A model generated the notes under the pieces. That model worked only from the letters and a program-made list of their open reading frames with translations. It was not told the origin of the DNA and made no database searches. The position numbers were made by a program, and so were the translations under genes. From Halopiger goleimassiliensis (GTDB lineage: Archaea; Halobacteriota; Halobacteria; Halobacteriales; Natrialbaceae), in the NCBI RefSeq assembly GCF_000455345.1, contig NZ_HG315690.1, forward strand, positions 434,001 through 498,000: a stretch of DNA of 64,000 nt, written 5' to 3'. This document shows positions 10 to 7,896 of the stretch, one piece after another (positions within the stretch are counted from its first letter, which is position 1; each line of letters starts with the position of its first letter).

Positions 10-1296
10 ATGATCGCCATCGCTGGATCGAAAGGTGGCTGTGGGAAGACCACGGTGACGTTGGGACTCGCCGAGGCGTTCGCCCGGGCGGAGACGGCGG
101 CGATCGCCGTCGACGCGGACAGACAACTGCCGAACCTGCACGTCAAGACCGACCTCGATCGGGGGCCGACGGTCGCCGACCTCGAGTCGGGTCACTCGCT
201 CGAAGAGATCGCCCAGGAACACCCCAGGGAACCGTCGGTCGGGATCGTTCCCGCCCCGAAGTCCTCGGAGGCCTTCGAGTTCGACGTGCTGGCAGAGCAC
301 GTCGACGAGGACGGTTACCAGGCCCTGATCGACTGTCCCTCCGGTGCCGGTCCCGACGTCGTCGATCCGATGAGCCAGGCCGACGGCGTCGTCGTCGTGG
401 CCTCGGAGACGGACCGCAGCCTCGAGGCGGCCGAGACGACGATCGAAATGGCTCGGCGACTCGGCGTCCCGGTCTACGGTGCCGTGTTGAACAAGTGCTC
501 GGAGATCCCCCAGCGGGCGAGCCGGTGGGACGTCCCGTTGCTGGGGTGTGTCCCCGAACGAACCTCGCCGCTGGTGAACGACGAGGTGATGGCCGCCTTC
601 GACGACGTCGTCGCGACGCTGCGGGAACAGTCCCCCAGCGACCGCGCGCCGCCGACGCTGTCCGGCGACCGACTGCCCACCGGCGTGACGGAACTGGATT
701 ACCGGATCGGTGGCGGTCTTCCACCGGGCTCCGTGGTAGCGCTGGTCGCGGAACCGGCCAGCCAGGCCGAACACCTCCTCTTCCAGGCGACCGGCGTTCG
801 CGGGACGCTCTATCTCTCGACGGCCCACTCGCGGGAAAACGTCCGCCGGTCGATCGAAGCCGCGTCCACGGGCACCGGAACGCCGACGATCAGACGGGTG
901 TCCGGCCCCGACGCCATCGACGACGCGCTGTCGTTGATCGAGAAGCTTCCCGACGCCGCGAACCTGATCGTCGATCCCGTCGACGAACTCGAGCGACGGG
1001 ATCGTTCGTCGTACGTCCGCTTCCTCGACGAACTCCGGGAGCGCATCGCCGAGACCGACAGTCTCGCTATCCTCCACTGTCTCGAGGGCGATCCGGAGAA
1101 CCGCGCGGCGACGCTTCGGGCCGCCGACGCAGTGCTCAAACTCGAGAGCGTCGCACCCGGGGCAGGGACGGACGTCGAACACTACCTGTCGGTTCCGAAG
1201 TACCGACCGAACGCCGAGTTCAGCGAGACGTTCGAGATCGACTTCGCCGACCACGCGGGCGCGGGACCGATCGAGTCCCCGCTCGAGTCGGACTGA
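10..1296 (+). CDS. MinD/ParA-like ATPase fused to a degenerate KaiC-like domain
   Basis: 428 residues. Residues 1-210 are a MinD/ParA/Soj-type P-loop ATPase: the deviant Walker A SKGGCGKTT lies at 7-15 with the signature Lys at 8 and the P-loop Lys at 13, and DCPSG and LNKC motifs follow. From about residue 218 a RecA/KaiC-like domain begins (TGVTELDYRIGGGLPPGS), but its Walker A is lost: the expected GPPGxGKT is replaced by AEPASQAEH, so the second half probably does not hydrolyse ATP. The gene ends 11 bases before a pair of RCK_C-like membrane proteins and lies upstream of a pilus locus. MinD homologues such as Haloferax MinD4 position archaella and pili at the poles; a similar role here is inference from context. 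The upstream region lies outside the window, so the promoter cannot be judged. Confidence 0.85.
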   Translation: MIAIAGSKGGCGKTTVTLGLAEAFARAETAAIAVDADRQLPNLHVKTDLDRGPTVADLESGHSLEEIAQEHPREPSVGIVPAPKSSEAFEFDVLAEHVDEDGYQALIDCPSGAGPDVVDPMSQADGVVVVASETDRSLEAAETTIEMARRLGVPVYGAVLNKCSEIPQRASRWDVPLLGCVPERTSPLVNDEVMAAFDDVVATLREQSPSDRAPPTLSGDRLPTGVTELDYRIGGGLPPGSVVALVAEPASQAEHLLFQATGVRGTLYLSTAHSRENVRRSIEAASTGTGTPTIRRVSGPDAIDDALSLIEKLPDAANLIVDPVDELERRDRSSYVRFLDELRERIAETDSLAILHCLEGDPENRAATLRAADAVLKLESVAPGAGTDVEHYLSVPKYRPNAEFSETFEIDFADHAGAGPIESPLESD

Positions 1297-1307
1297 GGTG
1301 ATCCCGG

Positions 1308-2432
1308 ATGGTCGATCTCCCGTACGAGTCACTGATCGGGATCTCCTACGGCCTCCTGCTCGGGTTCGTCCCCGCGTTGCTCTTCGGGCTGGCGGCGGTC
1401 GGCGTCGGAATCGGCCGGGACCGATCGGTCCCCCTCCTCGCCGGCGTGGGCACGGTTCCGATCGCGCTCGCGCTCGGATACTGGATCGGTATCTTCGATC
1501 CGAGTACCGGCCTCTCACAGACGCCGCGGCTCGCGATGGGGGCCGTCGTCGCCGGCGTCCTCGGCGTCGTCGCCACGAATCAGGGCAACCGGATCGCCGC
1601 CGAACTGCCGCGTGACCGGACGTTCCCGATCGTTCGGGGGCGCGCCCTCTCCGCAGATGCCATCGACAGCGTCGACGCGATGGGGCAGGTGACGATCCGA
1701 CCGACAGGTGCCATCCGCGAGTTCGATGGCTATCCACCGCTGTCCCCCGCGCTGCGATCCGCACTCGAAGACGGGGCCTGGCGGTTCCCCGCGGACCTGC
1801 AACTCGCGGAACTCGAACGGCGGCTCGAACAGCGCCTCGAGTCGGAGTACGGACTGTCGATGGTCGAGGTGTCGATCGACGGTCGCGGACGGGCGACGAT
1901 CGCCGCAGCACCGCCGGCAAAGGGCGTCGCGACGACGCTGTCCGACGGCACCAGGGCCGTGACGATCGCCGGCCTCCTGCCGACTGGTATCGAAGCGGGC
2001 GATACCGTCGCTATCGACGCGGATGGCCGAACCGTCGAGGGTGACGTCCTCGCCGTCGGAAATCGACCGCGGTCGTCCGAAATGGACCTCGACCTCGACG
2101 ACGACTACCGGGATGCGGCCGCGGGCTTCGACGGCGGGCACGGCCAACTCACCGTCGCCGTCGAGACGACCGCGGCCGGCCACCTCCTCGAATCGACGAC
2201 ACACCGCATCGCCGTCCTCCCGAGCGGTGACAACCACGAGTTCGAGGCGGCTGCCCTGCTCGAGGAAGCCGGCCATCCCGTCACCGCCGCCGAGCCGAGC
2301 GACGGGAGCGTCGATTCGGGAACGATCCTCGGCGTCCACGACGGAACCGACTGGCGCTTCGACGCCGACGACGCGCTCGACGCTGCCGTACAGGCGTTCG
2401 TCGCCGGAACCCCATCGGAGGTGAGCGACTGA
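1308..2432 (+). CDS. Membrane protein with RCK_C (TrkA-C)-like tail, copy 1
   Basis: 374 residues. Three hydrophobic segments (about 8-36, 41-63, 75-91) are followed by a long soluble part. It resembles haloarchaeal proteins annotated 'potassium transporter TrkA' because of a TrkA-C/RCK_C-like module that would bind a small ligand in the cytoplasm. No pore or selectivity-filter motif is visible, so calling it a K+ channel would be unsafe. The conserved core has the pattern DAIDSVDAMGQVTI, shared in looser form with the next gene (SARLAVDVDLPETI region). It starts 11 bases after the MinD fusion gene, and its stop overlaps the next start as TGATG, so translation is probably coupled. The function of the pair is unknown. 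Confidence 0.75.
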   Translation: MVDLPYESLIGISYGLLLGFVPALLFGLAAVGVGIGRDRSVPLLAGVGTVPIALALGYWIGIFDPSTGLSQTPRLAMGAVVAGVLGVVATNQGNRIAAELPRDRTFPIVRGRALSADAIDSVDAMGQVTIRPTGAIREFDGYPPLSPALRSALEDGAWRFPADLQLAELERRLEQRLESEYGLSMVEVSIDGRGRATIAAAPPAKGVATTLSDGTRAVTIAGLLPTGIEAGDTVAIDADGRTVEGDVLAVGNRPRSSEMDLDLDDDYRDAAAGFDGGHGQLTVAVETTAAGHLLESTTHRIAVLPSGDNHEFEAAALLEEAGHPVTAAEPSDGSVDSGTILGVHDGTDWRFDADDALDAAVQAFVAGTPSEVSD

Positions 2433-3646
2433 TGGTCGAACTGTCGCTGCTGTTCGAACTCGTCCGGGACGCGTCGATCGGCGTCGTCGGTGCCGGGCTT
2501 CTCGCCGCGATCACGAGTCTGCTCACCGCGACCGCCTATCGGTGGACGACGACCCGGGCACCACCGTCCGGCATGCCGACGTTCGTCGGTCTGTCGATCG
2601 TCGCGGTCTACCTGACCGCGTCCGTCCTCTCGGCAGGGGCCTTCTTCGCGACGACGCCGCTCGATCACCAGTTCAGCGCCGGCTACCTGCTCGCGACGTT
2701 CCTGCTCGGCGGCGTCGTCGCCGCCGCGAGCGGTCGGCTCGGCGACCGGATCGCGTGCCAGCTGCTCGATCTCTCGCGAATCGACGCTTCGGGTGACGCG
2801 GCCGCAGCCGTCCGATCGGCCCGCCTCGCCGTCGACGTCGACCTCCCCGAGACGATCGAGACGGCCGAGGGGTACCGACCGGTCGAGCCGTCCGTTCGAC
2901 GCGCCATCGAAGGAACGACCGTCCGACTCCCCCACGACCTCTCGGCGGACGACCGCCGTGGCCGGATCGAACGCCACCTTGAGCGGGAGTACGACCTCGG
3001 CTACGCGGAGGTTCGGACGACCGAAGACGGATCCGTCGACCGTCTCCTCGTCGGTCGCCAGTCCTCGGGACTGGGGCCGATGCTGCCGCCGCGAACCGTC
3101 GCCGTAGCGATCCAGGCCGACTCCGCGCCGGACGCGAGTCTCGGTGATCCGATCGAGATCTGGTCGACCGGCGAAGGGAGTCGACTGCTCGCGACCGGGA
3201 CGGTCCGATCGGTCGACGGCTCCGTTGCGACCGTCATCGTCGACCGCGACCTCGCCGACGACCTCGCCGACGACGAGCGGTATCGGCTGGTCACCCGTCC
3301 GGACGATCCGACCGACGCCTACGAGTTCGCCTCGACGATCCGCGAAGTCGACGAGACGGTGACGACCCTGACGGTGGCGGCCGACGGCCCGCTCGACGGC
3401 GAGTTCGCCGGCTGGCTCCCGGGCCGGGTCCTCGTCATCGACCGTGACGACGAGTTGCTGGCGATGCCCGACGACAAGGAGACGATCCGTGCGGGCGACG
3501 ACCTCTGGGTGCTCGCCGCGCCGGACGCGCTGACGGACTTCGATCCGACGGCCGGTGATGCGAGCACAATCCCGTCGAAACCCGACGAAACCGAATCGGA
3601 CGAAGCGGACGCGGACGAGACGGACGCCGAGGAACTGACAGTGTAG
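2432..3646 (+). CDS. Membrane protein with RCK_C (TrkA-C)-like tail, copy 2
   Basis: 404 residues, a diverged paralogue of the preceding gene with the same layout. Hydrophobic segments lie at about 14-36, 49-73 and 84-101, followed by soluble domains. The C-terminal module around residues 310-365 contains LPGRVLVIDRDDELLAMPDD and ends in GDDLWVLA, which fits an RCK_C fold. The last 35 residues form an Asp/Glu-rich tail. Two adjacent non-identical copies suggest an obligate heteromer (inference). The gene closes the first operon: a TATA box for the next gene lies directly after the stop codon. Confidence 0.75.
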   Translation: MVELSLLFELVRDASIGVVGAGLLAAITSLLTATAYRWTTTRAPPSGMPTFVGLSIVAVYLTASVLSAGAFFATTPLDHQFSAGYLLATFLLGGVVAAASGRLGDRIACQLLDLSRIDASGDAAAAVRSARLAVDVDLPETIETAEGYRPVEPSVRRAIEGTTVRLPHDLSADDRRGRIERHLEREYDLGYAEVRTTEDGSVDRLLVGRQSSGLGPMLPPRTVAVAIQADSAPDASLGDPIEIWSTGEGSRLLATGTVRSVDGSVATVIVDRDLADDLADDERYRLVTRPDDPTDAYEFASTIREVDETVTTLTVAADGPLDGEFAGWLPGRVLVIDRDDELLAMPDDKETIRAGDDLWVLAAPDALTDFDPTAGDASTIPSKPDETESDEADADETDAEELTV

Positions 3647-3647
3647 A

Positions 3648-3656
3648 AATTTAAAT
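3648..3656 (+). promoter_or_regulatory. TATA box AATTTAAAT for the 3679 gene
   Basis: The box AATTTAAAT is centred about 27 nt before the ATG at 3679, the spacing of a leaderless haloarchaeal promoter. The same arrangement recurs before 9631, 10859 and 14697. Confidence 0.6.
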
Positions 3657-3678
3657 CGGAGCAGGAGGGAGAACAAGT

Positions 3679-4044
3679 ATGGTATCGGTCGATACGAACG
3701 CCGAACGAACCAGCGGGATCACGACCGTCCGGGTGGTGCTCACGAACGACCACACGACGCCCCAGGCGGTTCGGCTGCAGAGCAATCTCGATGGCCCCGT
3801 CTGGCCGCCCCGACGCGGCGGGGTGGACGATCCTCGCTGGGCGGACGACGTCTGGGAGGCGACGATCCGGCCGGGCCGCACGCACGGCGTCGGCTTCGCC
3901 AGCCCTGCGCCGCCGACCGAACCGCTGGTCGAGGTCGTCTCGAGCGAGCGCCAGGACGCCGACAAGTTGCGGTCCGATTCCGAAGTGCTCGCCCAACTGG
4001 ACGACTGGCGACCGCGAAACGAGGTGCTCGAGCGCGAGCCATGA
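3679..4044 (+). CDS. Conserved haloarchaeal protein of unknown function, pilus/MinD locus
   Basis: 121 residues with no signal peptide or membrane segment. It reads as a small beta-rich domain: an opening strand pattern (TTVRVVLTNDHTTPQAVRLQS), then a WPP motif and a FASPAPP motif. I recognise the type as one found beside MinD-like genes in haloarchaea but cannot give a function. Its stop overlaps the start of the following MinD-like gene (ATGA), so the two are probably made together from the TATA box at 3648 and may act as a pair. Confidence 0.65.
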   Translation: MVSVDTNAERTSGITTVRVVLTNDHTTPQAVRLQSNLDGPVWPPRRGGVDDPRWADDVWEATIRPGRTHGVGFASPAPPTEPLVEVVSSERQDADKLRSDSEVLAQLDDWRPRNEVLEREP

Positions 4045-4739
4045 TCGTCACCGTGGCCGGCGGGAAAGGCGGCGTCGGAAAGTCGACGACGGCGTGGAAC
4101 CTGGCCCGCGAACTCGACGCCATCGTCGTCGACGCCGACCTCACGGGCGCGGATCTCCCGCCGGGTACCGGCCCGGACCTCCACGACGTACTGGCCGGGC
4201 GCGTGGACCCGATCGACGCCGCAGAGGAGGTCGGCCGGGTCACCCTGCTTCCCTGTGGTCGTAGCCTGTCCGGTGCCCGTGCGGCCAATCTCGAGGCTCT
4301 CGGGGATGCACTGCAGCGGATCGAGCGCGAGTGGGGCCGCGTCGTCATCGACTGTCCGGCGGGGCTGGCCCGCGACGTCGGAATCGAACTCCGAACCGCC
4401 GATCTCGCAGTCTTCGTGACGATGCCCGATCGAGCCGCATTAGTCGACCTGATGCGTACCTACGAACTCGCCGAGGACCTCGAGACGCCCGTCGCCTCCG
4501 TCGTGCTCAACAAGGCAGACCTCGAGCGTCACGACGAACTCGCCGGCCGGATGAGCCGCAGCCTCAGCGTCGACGTCACGATCGTCGAATCGCAGTCCGC
4601 CGTCGCCGAGGCCCAGGCTCGCTGGAAGCCGGTTCGCGACCACGACCCCGACGCCCAGGCGCTCGAGGCCTACGAATCGATCGCGAATCGGCTCGAGCGG
4701 GCCGAGCGACGTCTCTCCGATCGTCCCGAGACGATCTAG
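4041..4739 (+). CDS. MinD/ParA-like ATPase
   Basis: 232 residues, a complete MinD/ParA-family protein. The deviant Walker A GGKGGVGKST lies at 7-16, DADLTGAD follows as the A' region, the Walker B-like VVIDCPAG lies in the middle, and VVLNKADL is the base-binding motif. No long C-terminal amphipathic helix of the bacterial MinD type is obvious, although a short charged helix (ANRLERAERRLS) ends the protein. It is the second MinD-type ATPase within 4 kb. Context suggests spatial positioning of the pilus machinery or of a membrane complex (inference). It is translationally coupled to the preceding small gene. Confidence 0.85.
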   Translation: MIVTVAGGKGGVGKSTTAWNLARELDAIVVDADLTGADLPPGTGPDLHDVLAGRVDPIDAAEEVGRVTLLPCGRSLSGARAANLEALGDALQRIEREWGRVVIDCPAGLARDVGIELRTADLAVFVTMPDRAALVDLMRTYELAEDLETPVASVVLNKADLERHDELAGRMSRSLSVDVTIVESQSAVAEAQARWKPVRDHDPDAQALEAYESIANRLERAERRLSDRPETI

Positions 4740-4856
4740 TTCCTTTTGTGGACGCCATCGACCGGATGCCACATCGCGAGGAGGAACTCCGTCCTCGAGC
4801 AGTACAGTCCAAGGCGTTACCGATTCGACCCTTCCCACGTGCGGTGGCGCGCGCTG

Positions 4857-5308
4857 TCGACTGGCCGAGCGAAGCGAGGTGTGACCTCTGGGAGCACCTC
4901 GAAAAGCGAACGGGAAGCAGTGCGACCCGTGAGCGTCAGTGAGGCCAGTCGAAGAAGCCGTGCGAGGACTTCGCGAGCTGCGCGGGACCGCCAGGTCCCG
5001 CGAACTGATCGCGCGGCTGCGCCGCGCGACACGAAGCGAGCGAAGGCTTGGAAGACGCGAAGCGTCTTCCAGTGGATGAGCGACCGGAGGGAGCGTTAGC
5101 GCGGAACCGGAGGTTCCGCGAACCATGCGAATAGTGCGGGACCGCTGGTCCCGCATACCGTGCGAGCGGGCCAGTGGCCCGCGAGCAGACGGCGGCGTTG
5201 CCGCCGTGAGCAGAAATCGGCTGGGGAGAGCGAGGTGCGAACGAACGTGAGCACCTCGGAACAGCGAACGGCGAACGGAGTGAGCCGTGAGCGGCGTGGC
5301 CACTCCCC
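4857..5308. repeat. Array of at least ten different short hairpins
   Basis: An untranslated stretch packed with perfect inverted repeats, most with loops of 3-4 nt. Examples (arm/arm): 4981-4989/4994-5002; 5009-5017/5021-5029; 5049-5058/5062-5071; 5100-5108/5112-5120; 5135-5143/5147-5155; 5166-5172/5176-5182; 5189-5196/5200-5207; 5231-5238/5251-5258. A longer-range pair joins 4857-4866 to 4943-4952. The stems differ in sequence but change in matched pairs: CGCGGGACC..GGTCCCGCG, TGCGGGACC..GGTCCCGCA and CGCGGAACC..GGTTCCGCG. Short GCGA(A/G) spacers separate them. Such covariation implies selection on structure, as RNA or as single-stranded DNA. The array lies in the convergent gap between the MinD gene and the PGF-CTERM gene, so termination is one possible role. 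Confidence 0.8.
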
Positions 5309-5504
5309 GTGTCCACGATAGCAGAGCGCTTCGGTTCACTTTCCCTAGATCTCTAAAACCCTGTTCAATAAGCAGCGCTACTGATCGACCGATTCATCGA
5401 AGAAGTCTAGAAAGAAAGCCGTAGGCGTATTCATCGATCTGCAGATCCCTCACGATTCGACCACCATCGAACCGGTCTCCCGAAAAACGTGCGTCGGTAG
5501 CGAG
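5309..5504. other. Intergenic remainder with no recognisable gene
   Basis: About 200 bases of lower G+C between the hairpin array and the stop of the PGF-CTERM gene. I see no reading frame, tRNA or terminal repeat here. The short stretch 4740-4856 before the array is also without a gene. Confidence 0.5.
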
Positions 5505-7772
5505 CTACGCCAGAATCCGTCGACGCATGGCGACTGCACTCGCTGCAAGCGCCATCGCGACGACGGCGAGTGCCGGCCCGAAGCCAGGAATGCCGTCACC
5601 GTCGGCTTCGGTGACCGCGATTTCCGCCTCGACGACGTCGTCGGGCGACTCGAGGCCGACGGTCACGTCACCCAACTCCTCGAGCGTCGTGTCGAACTCG
5701 AGGGACTCAGAGGCACCGGCCTCGAGTTCGACCGTCGTCTCGTCGACCGATTCGTCGTCGACCGTCAGCGCGACGCTCGCCTCGTCCGCGCCGCCGCCGA
5801 CGTTGGTAACGGTCGCGTTGATCGTCGCCGACTCTCCCTCCGTAACTGACGCAGGGGCGTCGAAGGCCTCGAGCTGGAACTCCGCCGGCTCGAGGAGGTC
5901 TATCGTGGCGGTCTCGGTCTCGTCGTGCAGTTCGACGACGTGGGTTGCGGTTCCCTGTTCGTCGTGTGTGAGGGTGAACGTCTCCGTCGAGCCGTCGGCG
6001 TCGACCGTGACGGTCTCCGTGGCGACGGACTCGCCGTCGATGCGGACCTCGACCGTTTCGGCGACCGGTTCGTCCGCTTCGTTCGTGAACCCGACCTCGA
6101 GGTCGTACTCGCTGCCGGCGGCAGCCTCCTCGGGCAGGGAGACCGACTCGAGGCCGACCGTGCCTGGCTCGTAGATCGACAGGTCGCCGAGAGGTTCGTC
6201 GTTGAGGGCGACGGTGCCGTTCTCCGCGGCCGTCCAGCGGAGCGTCTCGGTCGTCTCGCCGTCGGCGTCCACGTGGACTGTACTGCGCGTGACCTGTTCG
6301 TCGCCGACGGCGACGGTCGCCGTTTCAGACCCGGGGCCACCCGTGTTCTGGTAGGTGACGGCCGCCTCGAGCGTCGTTCCTTCGACTGCCGCTTCGGTGT
6401 CGAACGACGTGTCGACGAGGTCGATACTCGGCGGCTCGAGGACTTCGACAGTGACCGAATCGCTCTCGCCGGCGACCGTCGCAGTTAGTTCCGTTTCGCC
6501 GACCGAGTTGGCCTCGAGCAAGCCATTGGTGACTTCAGCAACGGCTTCCTCGGAGTCGTAGTCGGCGACTTCCGTGGCTGTGACCGTGGAGCCGTCGTCA
6601 AGGGTGAGTTCGACGGTTACTGATGTGGTTTCTCCCTCGCCGATCGATGGCTGGGCGATTTGTAAATCGACGTCCTGGATTTGCCACTTGAGCACCGGGT
6701 ACTCGTCGGTAGCGGTCCAGTAATTGCCGAAGTCAAGGTTCGTGTTTGTTTTTGGATCTTCTCCTGTTAATTCCTGTTCCTTAAGACCAGTACCATATTC
6801 TTCACCAGTTCCTATACTGTCGTCAGTTTTTGTCATGTCCACGTCCCAGTAGACGTCTGTTAGACCAGAGCCATCACTAGAGTCCCCTCCAGCGATGCCA
6901 CCAGAGTATTCGTTAGAGGTATCGATATCAGACCTCGAGTAAATACCATTACCTGATCCTTCGAAATCTCCGAAAATTCCTCCGTTAAAATTCCCTTCTA
7001 CATTTGCAGCGGCGTATGACTGGCGGACCGCTCCAGAGCTATACTGATTACCGGTTATTCCGCCTGCAAAACCATCGGTTGCCTCTACGGTACTCGTTGT
7101 ATGTGACTCCATAATTGTACCCGCGTTAGCCCCAACAATCCCCCCGATATATTCATCTCCGTTCACACTTACATCCGCATATGCTCGTAAAAGAATCGGG
7201 TCTCCACGGTTCCGTCCAACGACACCACCTACGTATTCATTACCTTCAACTTCCCCAGTTACGGCGATTGAACGACCTTCTCCCTCGAGTTGACCAATTA
7301 CCCCACCCACATATTGATCTCCTCTTATAAACGCGTTCTCTATCTCCACGTTTTCTACGGTGCCTGTCGCTGTTCCAAACAAACCAATATATGAGTCGCC
7401 CGGCCGATCGATAGTTAATCCTTTGACTGTGTGATTTCGACCGTCAAAGGTCCCACTAAACGGGATTTCGGTTCGATCACCGTACTCACTATCGCCGATT
7501 GGTTCGAATCCAGTTCCACCAGCCCAGTGTTCGGTATCACTGGCATCAATATCGTTCCCGAGGATGTAGTGTGCTTCGAGATCCTGGTTCATCGCCTGCA
7601 ATTCCTCGGCATTGGTAATCACGTAGGGGTTCTCTCCAGTTCCGTCACCTTCTAGTTCGTCAAGAGCGGCAGTTTGCTCAGCAGCACCAACGCCTGCACC
7701 GAGAGCAATACCGAGTGCAACGATACAAATTGCAAGAGTAGTGATTATTGATTTTTCTCGTTGATGTGTCAT
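5505..7772 (-). CDS. GLUG-repeat surface protein with PGF-CTERM sorting signal
   Basis: 755 residues from the ATG at 7772; a TTG further upstream (7799) is less likely. A signal peptide spans about 1-31. Residues 60-330 hold six GLUG-type repeats (YIGLFG, YVGGVIG, YVGGVVG, YIGGIVG, FAGGITG, YSGGIAG). A bacterial Ig (BIG2)-like domain follows, then three CARDB-like repeats with ATV/SVT strands. The C-terminus is PGFGP plus a hydrophobic helix and RRR, a PGF-CTERM signal for cleavage and lipid attachment by archaeosortase. The protein should therefore sit on the outer face, attached to the membrane through the S-layer, probably as an adhesin. The 5' part (GLUG, about 6680-7772) is much richer in A+T than the 3' stalk, suggesting a chimera in which a foreign head was joined to a native stalk. 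Confidence 0.88.
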   Translation of the reverse strand: MTHQREKSIITTLAICIVALGIALGAGVGAAEQTAALDELEGDGTGENPYVITNAEELQAMNQDLEAHYILGNDIDASDTEHWAGGTGFEPIGDSEYGDRTEIPFSGTFDGRNHTVKGLTIDRPGDSYIGLFGTATGTVENVEIENAFIRGDQYVGGVIGQLEGEGRSIAVTGEVEGNEYVGGVVGRNRGDPILLRAYADVSVNGDEYIGGIVGANAGTIMESHTTSTVEATDGFAGGITGNQYSSGAVRQSYAAANVEGNFNGGIFGDFEGSGNGIYSRSDIDTSNEYSGGIAGGDSSDGSGLTDVYWDVDMTKTDDSIGTGEEYGTGLKEQELTGEDPKTNTNLDFGNYWTATDEYPVLKWQIQDVDLQIAQPSIGEGETTSVTVELTLDDGSTVTATEVADYDSEEAVAEVTNGLLEANSVGETELTATVAGESDSVTVEVLEPPSIDLVDTSFDTEAAVEGTTLEAAVTYQNTGGPGSETATVAVGDEQVTRSTVHVDADGETTETLRWTAAENGTVALNDEPLGDLSIYEPGTVGLESVSLPEEAAAGSEYDLEVGFTNEADEPVAETVEVRIDGESVATETVTVDADGSTETFTLTHDEQGTATHVVELHDETETATIDLLEPAEFQLEAFDAPASVTEGESATINATVTNVGGGADEASVALTVDDESVDETTVELEAGASESLEFDTTLEELGDVTVGLESPDDVVEAEIAVTEADGDGIPGFGPALAVVAMALAASAVAMRRRILA

Positions 7773-7896
7773 CGTAGAGGGTCGTGAGCGATATCCCAAT
7801 AGTGTTTTGGTTTCTTACTAGAATAGGGAATACTTATGTCGATTTTAGTTGACGGTTGGCGTATATAGATTGTATAAAGAACTGGTTTATTCTCCC

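Follow-up and report, generated by a model that had tools for sequence, protein, structure and literature searches.

A dispersed haloarchaeal intergenic element with a conserved, covarying fold enlarged by hairpins at fixed sites

In IS200/IS605 elements, subterminal hairpins are recognized by the mobilization machinery. The PATEs of Haloquadratum walsbyi have ends that resemble those of IS605-type transposons, and their palindromes lie near the termini (PMC3119063). The omega-RNAs of the IS200/IS605 (TnpB) elements have been seen as RNA in Halobacterium (PMC12558985), and the archaeal table of a survey of REP sequences contains no haloarchaeon (PMC12306157). Here we analyzed a hairpin-rich segment in a window of 64,000 nucleotides of Halopiger goleimassiliensis (contig NZ_HG315690.1, positions 434,001 to 498,000); all positions given below are counted from the first letter of the window. 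The literature searched, which lay outside subscription journals, yielded no description of the element found there; its nearest matches were the PATEs, MITEs and SMRs (PMC3119063) and the REP survey.

Architecture of the element

A first-pass annotation of the window had described at least ten perfect inverted repeats at 4857-5308. The hairpins themselves stood far above chance, with seven perfect inverted repeats that do not overlap (loops of 3-4 nt, stems of 7 bp or more) against a mean of 0.1 and a maximum of 1 in 300 dinucleotide shuffles of the segment, but the count was too high, as even the inclusion of 5-bp stems gave eight. Further hairpins at 4869-4940 and 5229-5292 contained tandem G.A interruptions or longer loops. 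The compensating changes that had been read in the stems were found as described, in CGCGGGACC/GGTCCCGCG (4981), in CGCGGAACC/GGTTCCGCG at 5100 (inner G-C to A-T) and in TGCGGGACC/GGTCCCGCA at 5135 (outer C-G to T-A), and about 20 distinct hairpins of the 5100 type showed the same stem alternatives, compensating changes included. Folding of both strands, which the annotation had proposed as a check, gave a better RNA fold for the + strand (-275 kcal/mol, z -7.4) than for the - strand (-240 kcal/mol, z -5.6). The flanking genes, 4041-4739 (+) and 5505-7799 (-), are indeed convergent. Upstream of the element on the + strand, the window (10-4739) contains the genes 10-1296 and 4041-4739, both for ParA/MinD-like ATPases, along with three others.

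Comparison with homologous copies showed that the hairpin array is the most enlarged copy (4840-5323, +) of a dispersed haloarchaeal element with a conserved fold. The limits first assigned to it were too narrow, as the conserved element covers 4840-5323 and is followed by a conserved tail to about 5336. The copies in the Halopiger genome, located by their left ends, varied in length from about 130 to 484 nt, measured from TGCGGTGGCGCGCGCTG to CCACGATAGCA, and the window copy was the longest of the 28 measured. The short copies form a self-contained fold of about 131 nt, consisting of the closing stem P0, the arm P1/P2, the P3 arm and P4 (Table 1). This is the core, to which long copies add hairpins at four fixed sites; all four are filled in the window copy, and in other copies they are empty or hold insertions that measure about 50-64 nt or a multiple of this. 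The hairpins listed in the first-pass annotation belong mostly to inserts B and C. The array is therefore not an independent unit but results from the expansion of a conserved core by inserts at its four fixed sites, nor is it special to one convergent gene pair, with about 52 copies of the element dispersed in the same genome.

Table 1. Features of the window copy
Feature	Position	Strand	Evidence
Whole structured element, closed by P0	4840-5323	+	Homologous copies begin at TGCGGTGGC; conservation falls sharply upstream
P0, 5' strand (TGC 4840-4842, GTGG 4844-4847)	4840-4847	+	Partners GCA 5321-5323 and CCAC 5313-5316
P1, 5' strand (CGCGCG; partner CGTGCG 4959-4964)	4848-4853	+	99.2% of cells paired, both-side changes
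P2, 5' strand (TCGACTGGCC; partner GGCCAGTCGA 4943-4952)	4857-4866	+	Double-sided changes at every P2 pair
Insert A, P2 apical loop (72 nt; 8 in short copies)	4869-4940	+	Insert-size comparison
Insert B, P1-P3 junction (107 nt; absent from short copies)	4968-5074	+	Insert-size comparison
Insert B hairpins	4981-5002, 5009-5029, 5049-5071	+	Inverted-repeat search
P3 arm (GAT-GA-GC-GA-CC-loop-GG-GA-GC)	5075-5094	+	Family: 99% of cells paired, both-side changes
Insert C, P3 3' strand (119 nt)	5096-5214	+	Inverted repeats, insert-size comparison
Insert C hairpins	5100-5120, 5135-5155, 5166-5182, 5189-5207	+	First hairpin: 20 distinct compensated variants
P3, 3' strand (ATC; partner GAT 5075-5077)	5216-5218	+	Family covariation
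P4, 5' strand (GGGGAG; partner CTCCCC 5303-5308)	5223-5228	+	Pairing in about 90% of cells, G-C often changed to G-U
Insert D, at P4 (64 nt; absent from short copies)	5229-5292	+	Insert-size comparison; predicted fold: two hairpins with tandem G.A
P4b, small hairpin (GC-GTG-GC)	5294-5300	+	91.8% of cells paired
P0, 3' strand (CCAC....GCA)	5313-5323	+	Pairs with P0 5' strand
Conserved pyrimidine-rich tail (consensus GrACGCTtctttTc), putative 3'-end signal	5324-5336	+	73-copy consensus

At each position of the closing stem P0 (TGC/GCA and GTGG/CCAC), 48-61 of 64 copies were paired, wobble variants among them, and the start of P0 coincided exactly with the onset of sequence conservation, none being present upstream. 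The complete P3 arm reads GAT-GA-GC-GA-CC-loop-GG-GA-GC-GA-ATC, in which 2-bp helices alternate with tandem G.A; a further step is present in longer versions. In the minimum free energy fold, insert A also formed a two-hairpin module with tandem G.A. The spacers GCGAG/GCGAA noted in the first-pass annotation are halves of these tandem G.A steps, at which the G.A pairs would probably be of the sheared type. The unpaired stretches GCGAGGGAUGAG and UCGGCUGGGG were nearly invariant. The tail contained a run of at least four T in only 8 of 73 copies, and no conserved promoter-like sequence was found upstream of the element in the family consensus. After some copies the tail (ATAGCAGGACGCTTC and about 20 nt) was tandemly repeated two to three times (L011:1620-1760, L022:1625-1720). 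Two further pairings were rejected: an extra stem between the CGGYT motif and the upstream RCCG, whose correlation was weak by eye and which clashed with the covarying P1, and a hairpin GTGTCC/GGACGC at the 3' side, which some copies were predicted to form but which was broken in several, P0 giving the better fit.

Covariation and genomic context

A covariance model was built from nine short copies, and 34 pairs were counted over 64 copies that it found. Paired cells made up 95.5% of the total, compared with 82.2% after shuffling. Both-side changes occurred in 23 of the 34 pairs, and 277 cells were doubly compensated, all of these counts leaning towards the structure as the alignment was fitted to it; the shuffled controls had a mean of 62, none of the 500 shuffles reached 277, and shifting the partner by 1-3 columns gave 15-38. 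Given a gap of this size, and given that single P2 positions showed all canonical pair types, the covariation is unlikely to be an artefact. In addition to these compensations, the paired cells contained 195 G.U or U.G and 24 A.C or C.A. A cruciform folds both strands, so G.U and A.C should be equally frequent in it, whereas A.C was eight times rarer; one strand, in the orientation given here, folds, as RNA would and single-stranded DNA might. The element thus showed features of a structured noncoding RNA, namely compensation above both shuffles and register shifts and the asymmetry of a single strand. Single short copies folded only moderately better than their shuffles (z -1.8).

The proposals of the first-pass annotation that the structure rather than the sequence is kept, and that the array might be a structured RNA, are strongly supported by the family-wide covariation and the G.U excess over A.C. 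The same asymmetry disfavors a two-stranded cruciform or a nucleoid role, the second of which it had also considered; a role in termination, which it had likewise named, or at 3' ends may hold. The annotation had named the absence of similar arrays and of covariation as outcomes that would speak against it, and both related copies and covariation were found.

Of the paired positions that differed between orthologous copies, 21 had changed on both sides, 25 had changed on one side with pairing preserved, and 21 were disrupted. The one-sided changes were mostly G-C to G-U or G-U to A-U, and G-C to A-C did not occur. These substitutions suggest that selection for RNA pairing acts on resident copies as well as on mobile ones; exchange by gene conversion among copies could contribute to such in-situ constraint or partly mimic it. 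At one orthologous locus an unrelated but self-complementary sequence had taken the place of the entire P2 stem (L124:3677-3830 versus L234:3680-3834 and L235:5230-5380), which suggests a cassette-like exchange or gene conversion between copies.

The genomic context was counted for clean single copies pooled from two samples (n=73), with genes called by a simple gene caller. Copies lay between convergent genes in 36 of 73 cases and between divergent genes in 5, and avoidance of promoters explains most of this preference. Between tandem genes, sense and antisense elements were equally frequent (16 and 16), and a sense bias relative to the upstream gene was accordingly rejected there.

We read the element as a haloarchaeal repeat, non-autonomous and dispersed between genes, that functions as a single-stranded RNA fold rather than as a duplex-DNA palindrome, a reading in which belief and doubt are about evenly balanced. 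Since no conserved promoter was found, the RNA would come from neighboring transcription that runs into the element, where it would fold in place. The fold and its pyrimidine-rich tail might then mark or protect the 3' end of the incoming transcript. Judged from the sequences, the element probably acts at the 3' ends of transcripts. This is weakened by the equality of sense and antisense copies between tandem genes, which a sense 3'-UTR role would not predict, and the scarcity of T runs in the tail also speaks against it. The element would spread via an activity acting in trans and survive mainly between convergent genes, where no promoter would be harmed, and the long window copy would be the same fold with all of its expansion sites filled.

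Distribution, turnover and tail-to-tail pairs

A BLAST search of the Halopiger genome with 4840-5310 gave 62 matches, some of which were full-length with the same ends and different middles, and the covariance model gave 72 hits, which merged into the approximately 52 copies (E-values down to 1e-54). Model hits were present in 45 of 61 genomes of the family and in 140 of 292 genomes of the class Halobacteria, Natrinema thermotolerans being among the named carriers, and a phylum-wide sample of 295 genomes contained 17 positives, all in the same order. No match to any family of Rfam 15 was obtained at the gathering score, and nothing relevant at permissive thresholds. The phage records contained no match to the element; two viral contigs had an 18-mer in common with it, yet the model gave no hit in them. 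In the Halopiger genome (G000, C1 and C2) the copies were skewed in orientation, with 37 on the + and 15 on the - strand (two-sided binomial p 0.003), and C1 was without any copy from about 1.50 to 2.17 Mb.

Copies within the Halopiger genome were 82% alike and shared 71-76% with the copies of other genomes, which indicates amplification in this genome; the copies in other genomes are old and diverse. The element was missing downstream of the orthologue of 4041-4739 in Natrialba asiatica and Natronoglomus. At one intergenic site in the genus of genome G137, a pair was present in G137, G150, G220 and G313, a single copy in G062, and about 14 congeners had no element there; a second site was occupied in G137, G150 and G220 and empty in G197; and a third held the bare core in G137, one added hairpin module in G220 and two in G150. 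From these occupied and empty sites and module differences, it follows that both elements and modules come and go. No target-site duplication was found, the empty orthologous sites being too diverged to read one.

The strongest rival to the RNA reading is that the fold serves as substrate or guide of its own mobilization, as RNA or folded single-stranded DNA recognized in trans by a transposition, retro-mobility or nuclease complex. The sporadic, dispersed distribution, the empty sites and the higher likeness of copies within the Halopiger genome agree with this, and the nearly invariant unpaired stretches suggest a protein partner. However, a search of that genome with PF01797 for a Y1 (HUH) transposase, as in a RAYT association, gave no match, its six TnpB genes have ends and flanking sequences that do not resemble the element, and old resident copies keep their pairing, which mobility alone does not require. 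Mobilization is thus possible without being the favored account, although it is nearly as likely as a transcript-end RNA.

Close neighbors in genomes G035, G137, G062, G220, G224, G150, G313, G197 and G043 comprised 27 tail-to-tail cases, a few of which are the same locus in related species and so not all independent; the remaining case was a weak head-to-head one, and tandem neighbors did not occur. The Halopiger genome contained singles only. The tail-to-tail arrangement held between convergent, tandem and divergent genes and is therefore a property of the element, not of the genes. The two members of a pair were not copies of each other, and at two orthologous loci they were swapped relative to the flanks between species: the values were 0.90/0.89 in swapped and 0.75/0.73 in same-side comparison for G137/G062, and 0.92/0.89 and 0.82/0.82, respectively, for G313/G197, with a similar pattern for one pair member in G150/G220. 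The swap of members relative to conserved flanks at the pair loci L123/L125 and L176/L103 looks as if the pair had been inverted in place. Inside the pair spacer of G150 and G220 (L240, L241) lay a palindromic repeat of about 110 bp (CTATAGTAGCCGCTGAAA ... GGCTACTATAG), which was cleanly missing in G137 (L124:8862-8922), with related ends in L125 and L173, and which seems to be a short mobile repeat in its own right. That the elements form the ends of a larger transposon was rejected, as one 3.8-kb interval between two tail-to-tail copies contained ordinary-looking genes.

Another rival is a DNA-level role, in which the element would act as a cruciform, nucleoid or replication/recombination site, bidirectional where it is paired. 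Such a role would fit the tail-to-tail orientation of 27 of 28 close pairs, tandem-gene sites included, the swapping of members relative to their flanks, and the inverted repeat that the conserved tail GCCACGATAGCAGAACG makes on either side of a spacer richer in AT; against this, the rarity of A.C relative to G.U and the singles-only state of the Halopiger genome leave it improbable. That the hairpins are functionless GC-rich palindromes of chance and composition, as the G+C-rich genome and the modest z of single short copies might hint, can be dismissed, since segment shuffles gave at most one hairpin, E-values reached 1e-54 genome-wide, and the covariation against column shuffles and register shifts had already refuted it.

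Returning to the single-stranded RNA fold, we tentatively propose, while thinking it somewhat apter to fail than to hold, that the element represents a new class of archaeal mobile noncoding RNA, which spreads as singles or invertible tail-to-tail pairs, is selected for its fold in place, takes up hairpins at fixed sites and has a tandem-G.A ladder as its signature. Apparently, it constitutes a widespread family of structured intergenic RNA elements that is unlisted in Rfam, with what seem to be as many as tens of copies in a haloarchaeal genome. The family offers a clear test of whether archaeal dispersed repeats act as RNA. Its copies, in which from 0 to 4 of the expansion sites are filled, form a natural series of a single fold, and its orthologous insertion and inversion polymorphisms provide a handle for finding the mobilizing enzyme.

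Comparison with known systems

As the first-pass annotation had held, the array is neither a CRISPR nor a normal terminator; its hairpin stems differ and its spacing is irregular, in contrast to the identical repeats and equal-length unique spacers of a CRISPR array. The REP/BIME and ERIC repeats of bacteria resemble it in their many dispersed intergenic copies, GC-rich stem-loops and modular mosaics, and they likewise occur often in the vicinity of 3' ends and where genes converge. The element does consist of dispersed, multicopy, intergenic palindromic units, as REP/BIME sequences do, but it differs from them in its multi-helix covarying fold, its closed ends, its fixed expansion sites and its tail-to-tail pairs in other genera, and the Halopiger genome lacks a Y1/RAYT-type transposase.

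PATEs share with the element a haloarchaeal host, a non-coding nature, many copies, palindromes, and single copies without classical short terminal repeats (PMC3119063). In the element, however, the palindromes form an integrated RNA domain, and its ends are unlike the TnpB loci of its own genome: derivation from a PATE or IS605 element was rejected after BLAST of the core against the six TnpB loci of that genome, which the comparison of ends covered, gave matches at chance level only. The omega-RNAs are, like the element, structured haloarchaeal RNAs tied to dispersed elements, and identity with a TnpB omega-RNA was rejected as well, since the TnpB genes and the element copies of the Halopiger genome do not coincide in position and no tnpB locus matches.

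Haloarchaeal MITEs and SMRs are similarly non-autonomous, short and dispersed, and a tail-to-tail pair resembles a MITE with long inverted repeats (PMC3119063). Single copies of the element have no evident terminal repeats and its pairs have long inverted arms, but these arms differ in sequence while each keeps the fold, and no parental transposon was found. With the expansion segments of rRNA, which are unrelated to it in sequence and function, the element shares, by analogy only, a conserved core that is enlarged by hairpin modules at fixed sites.
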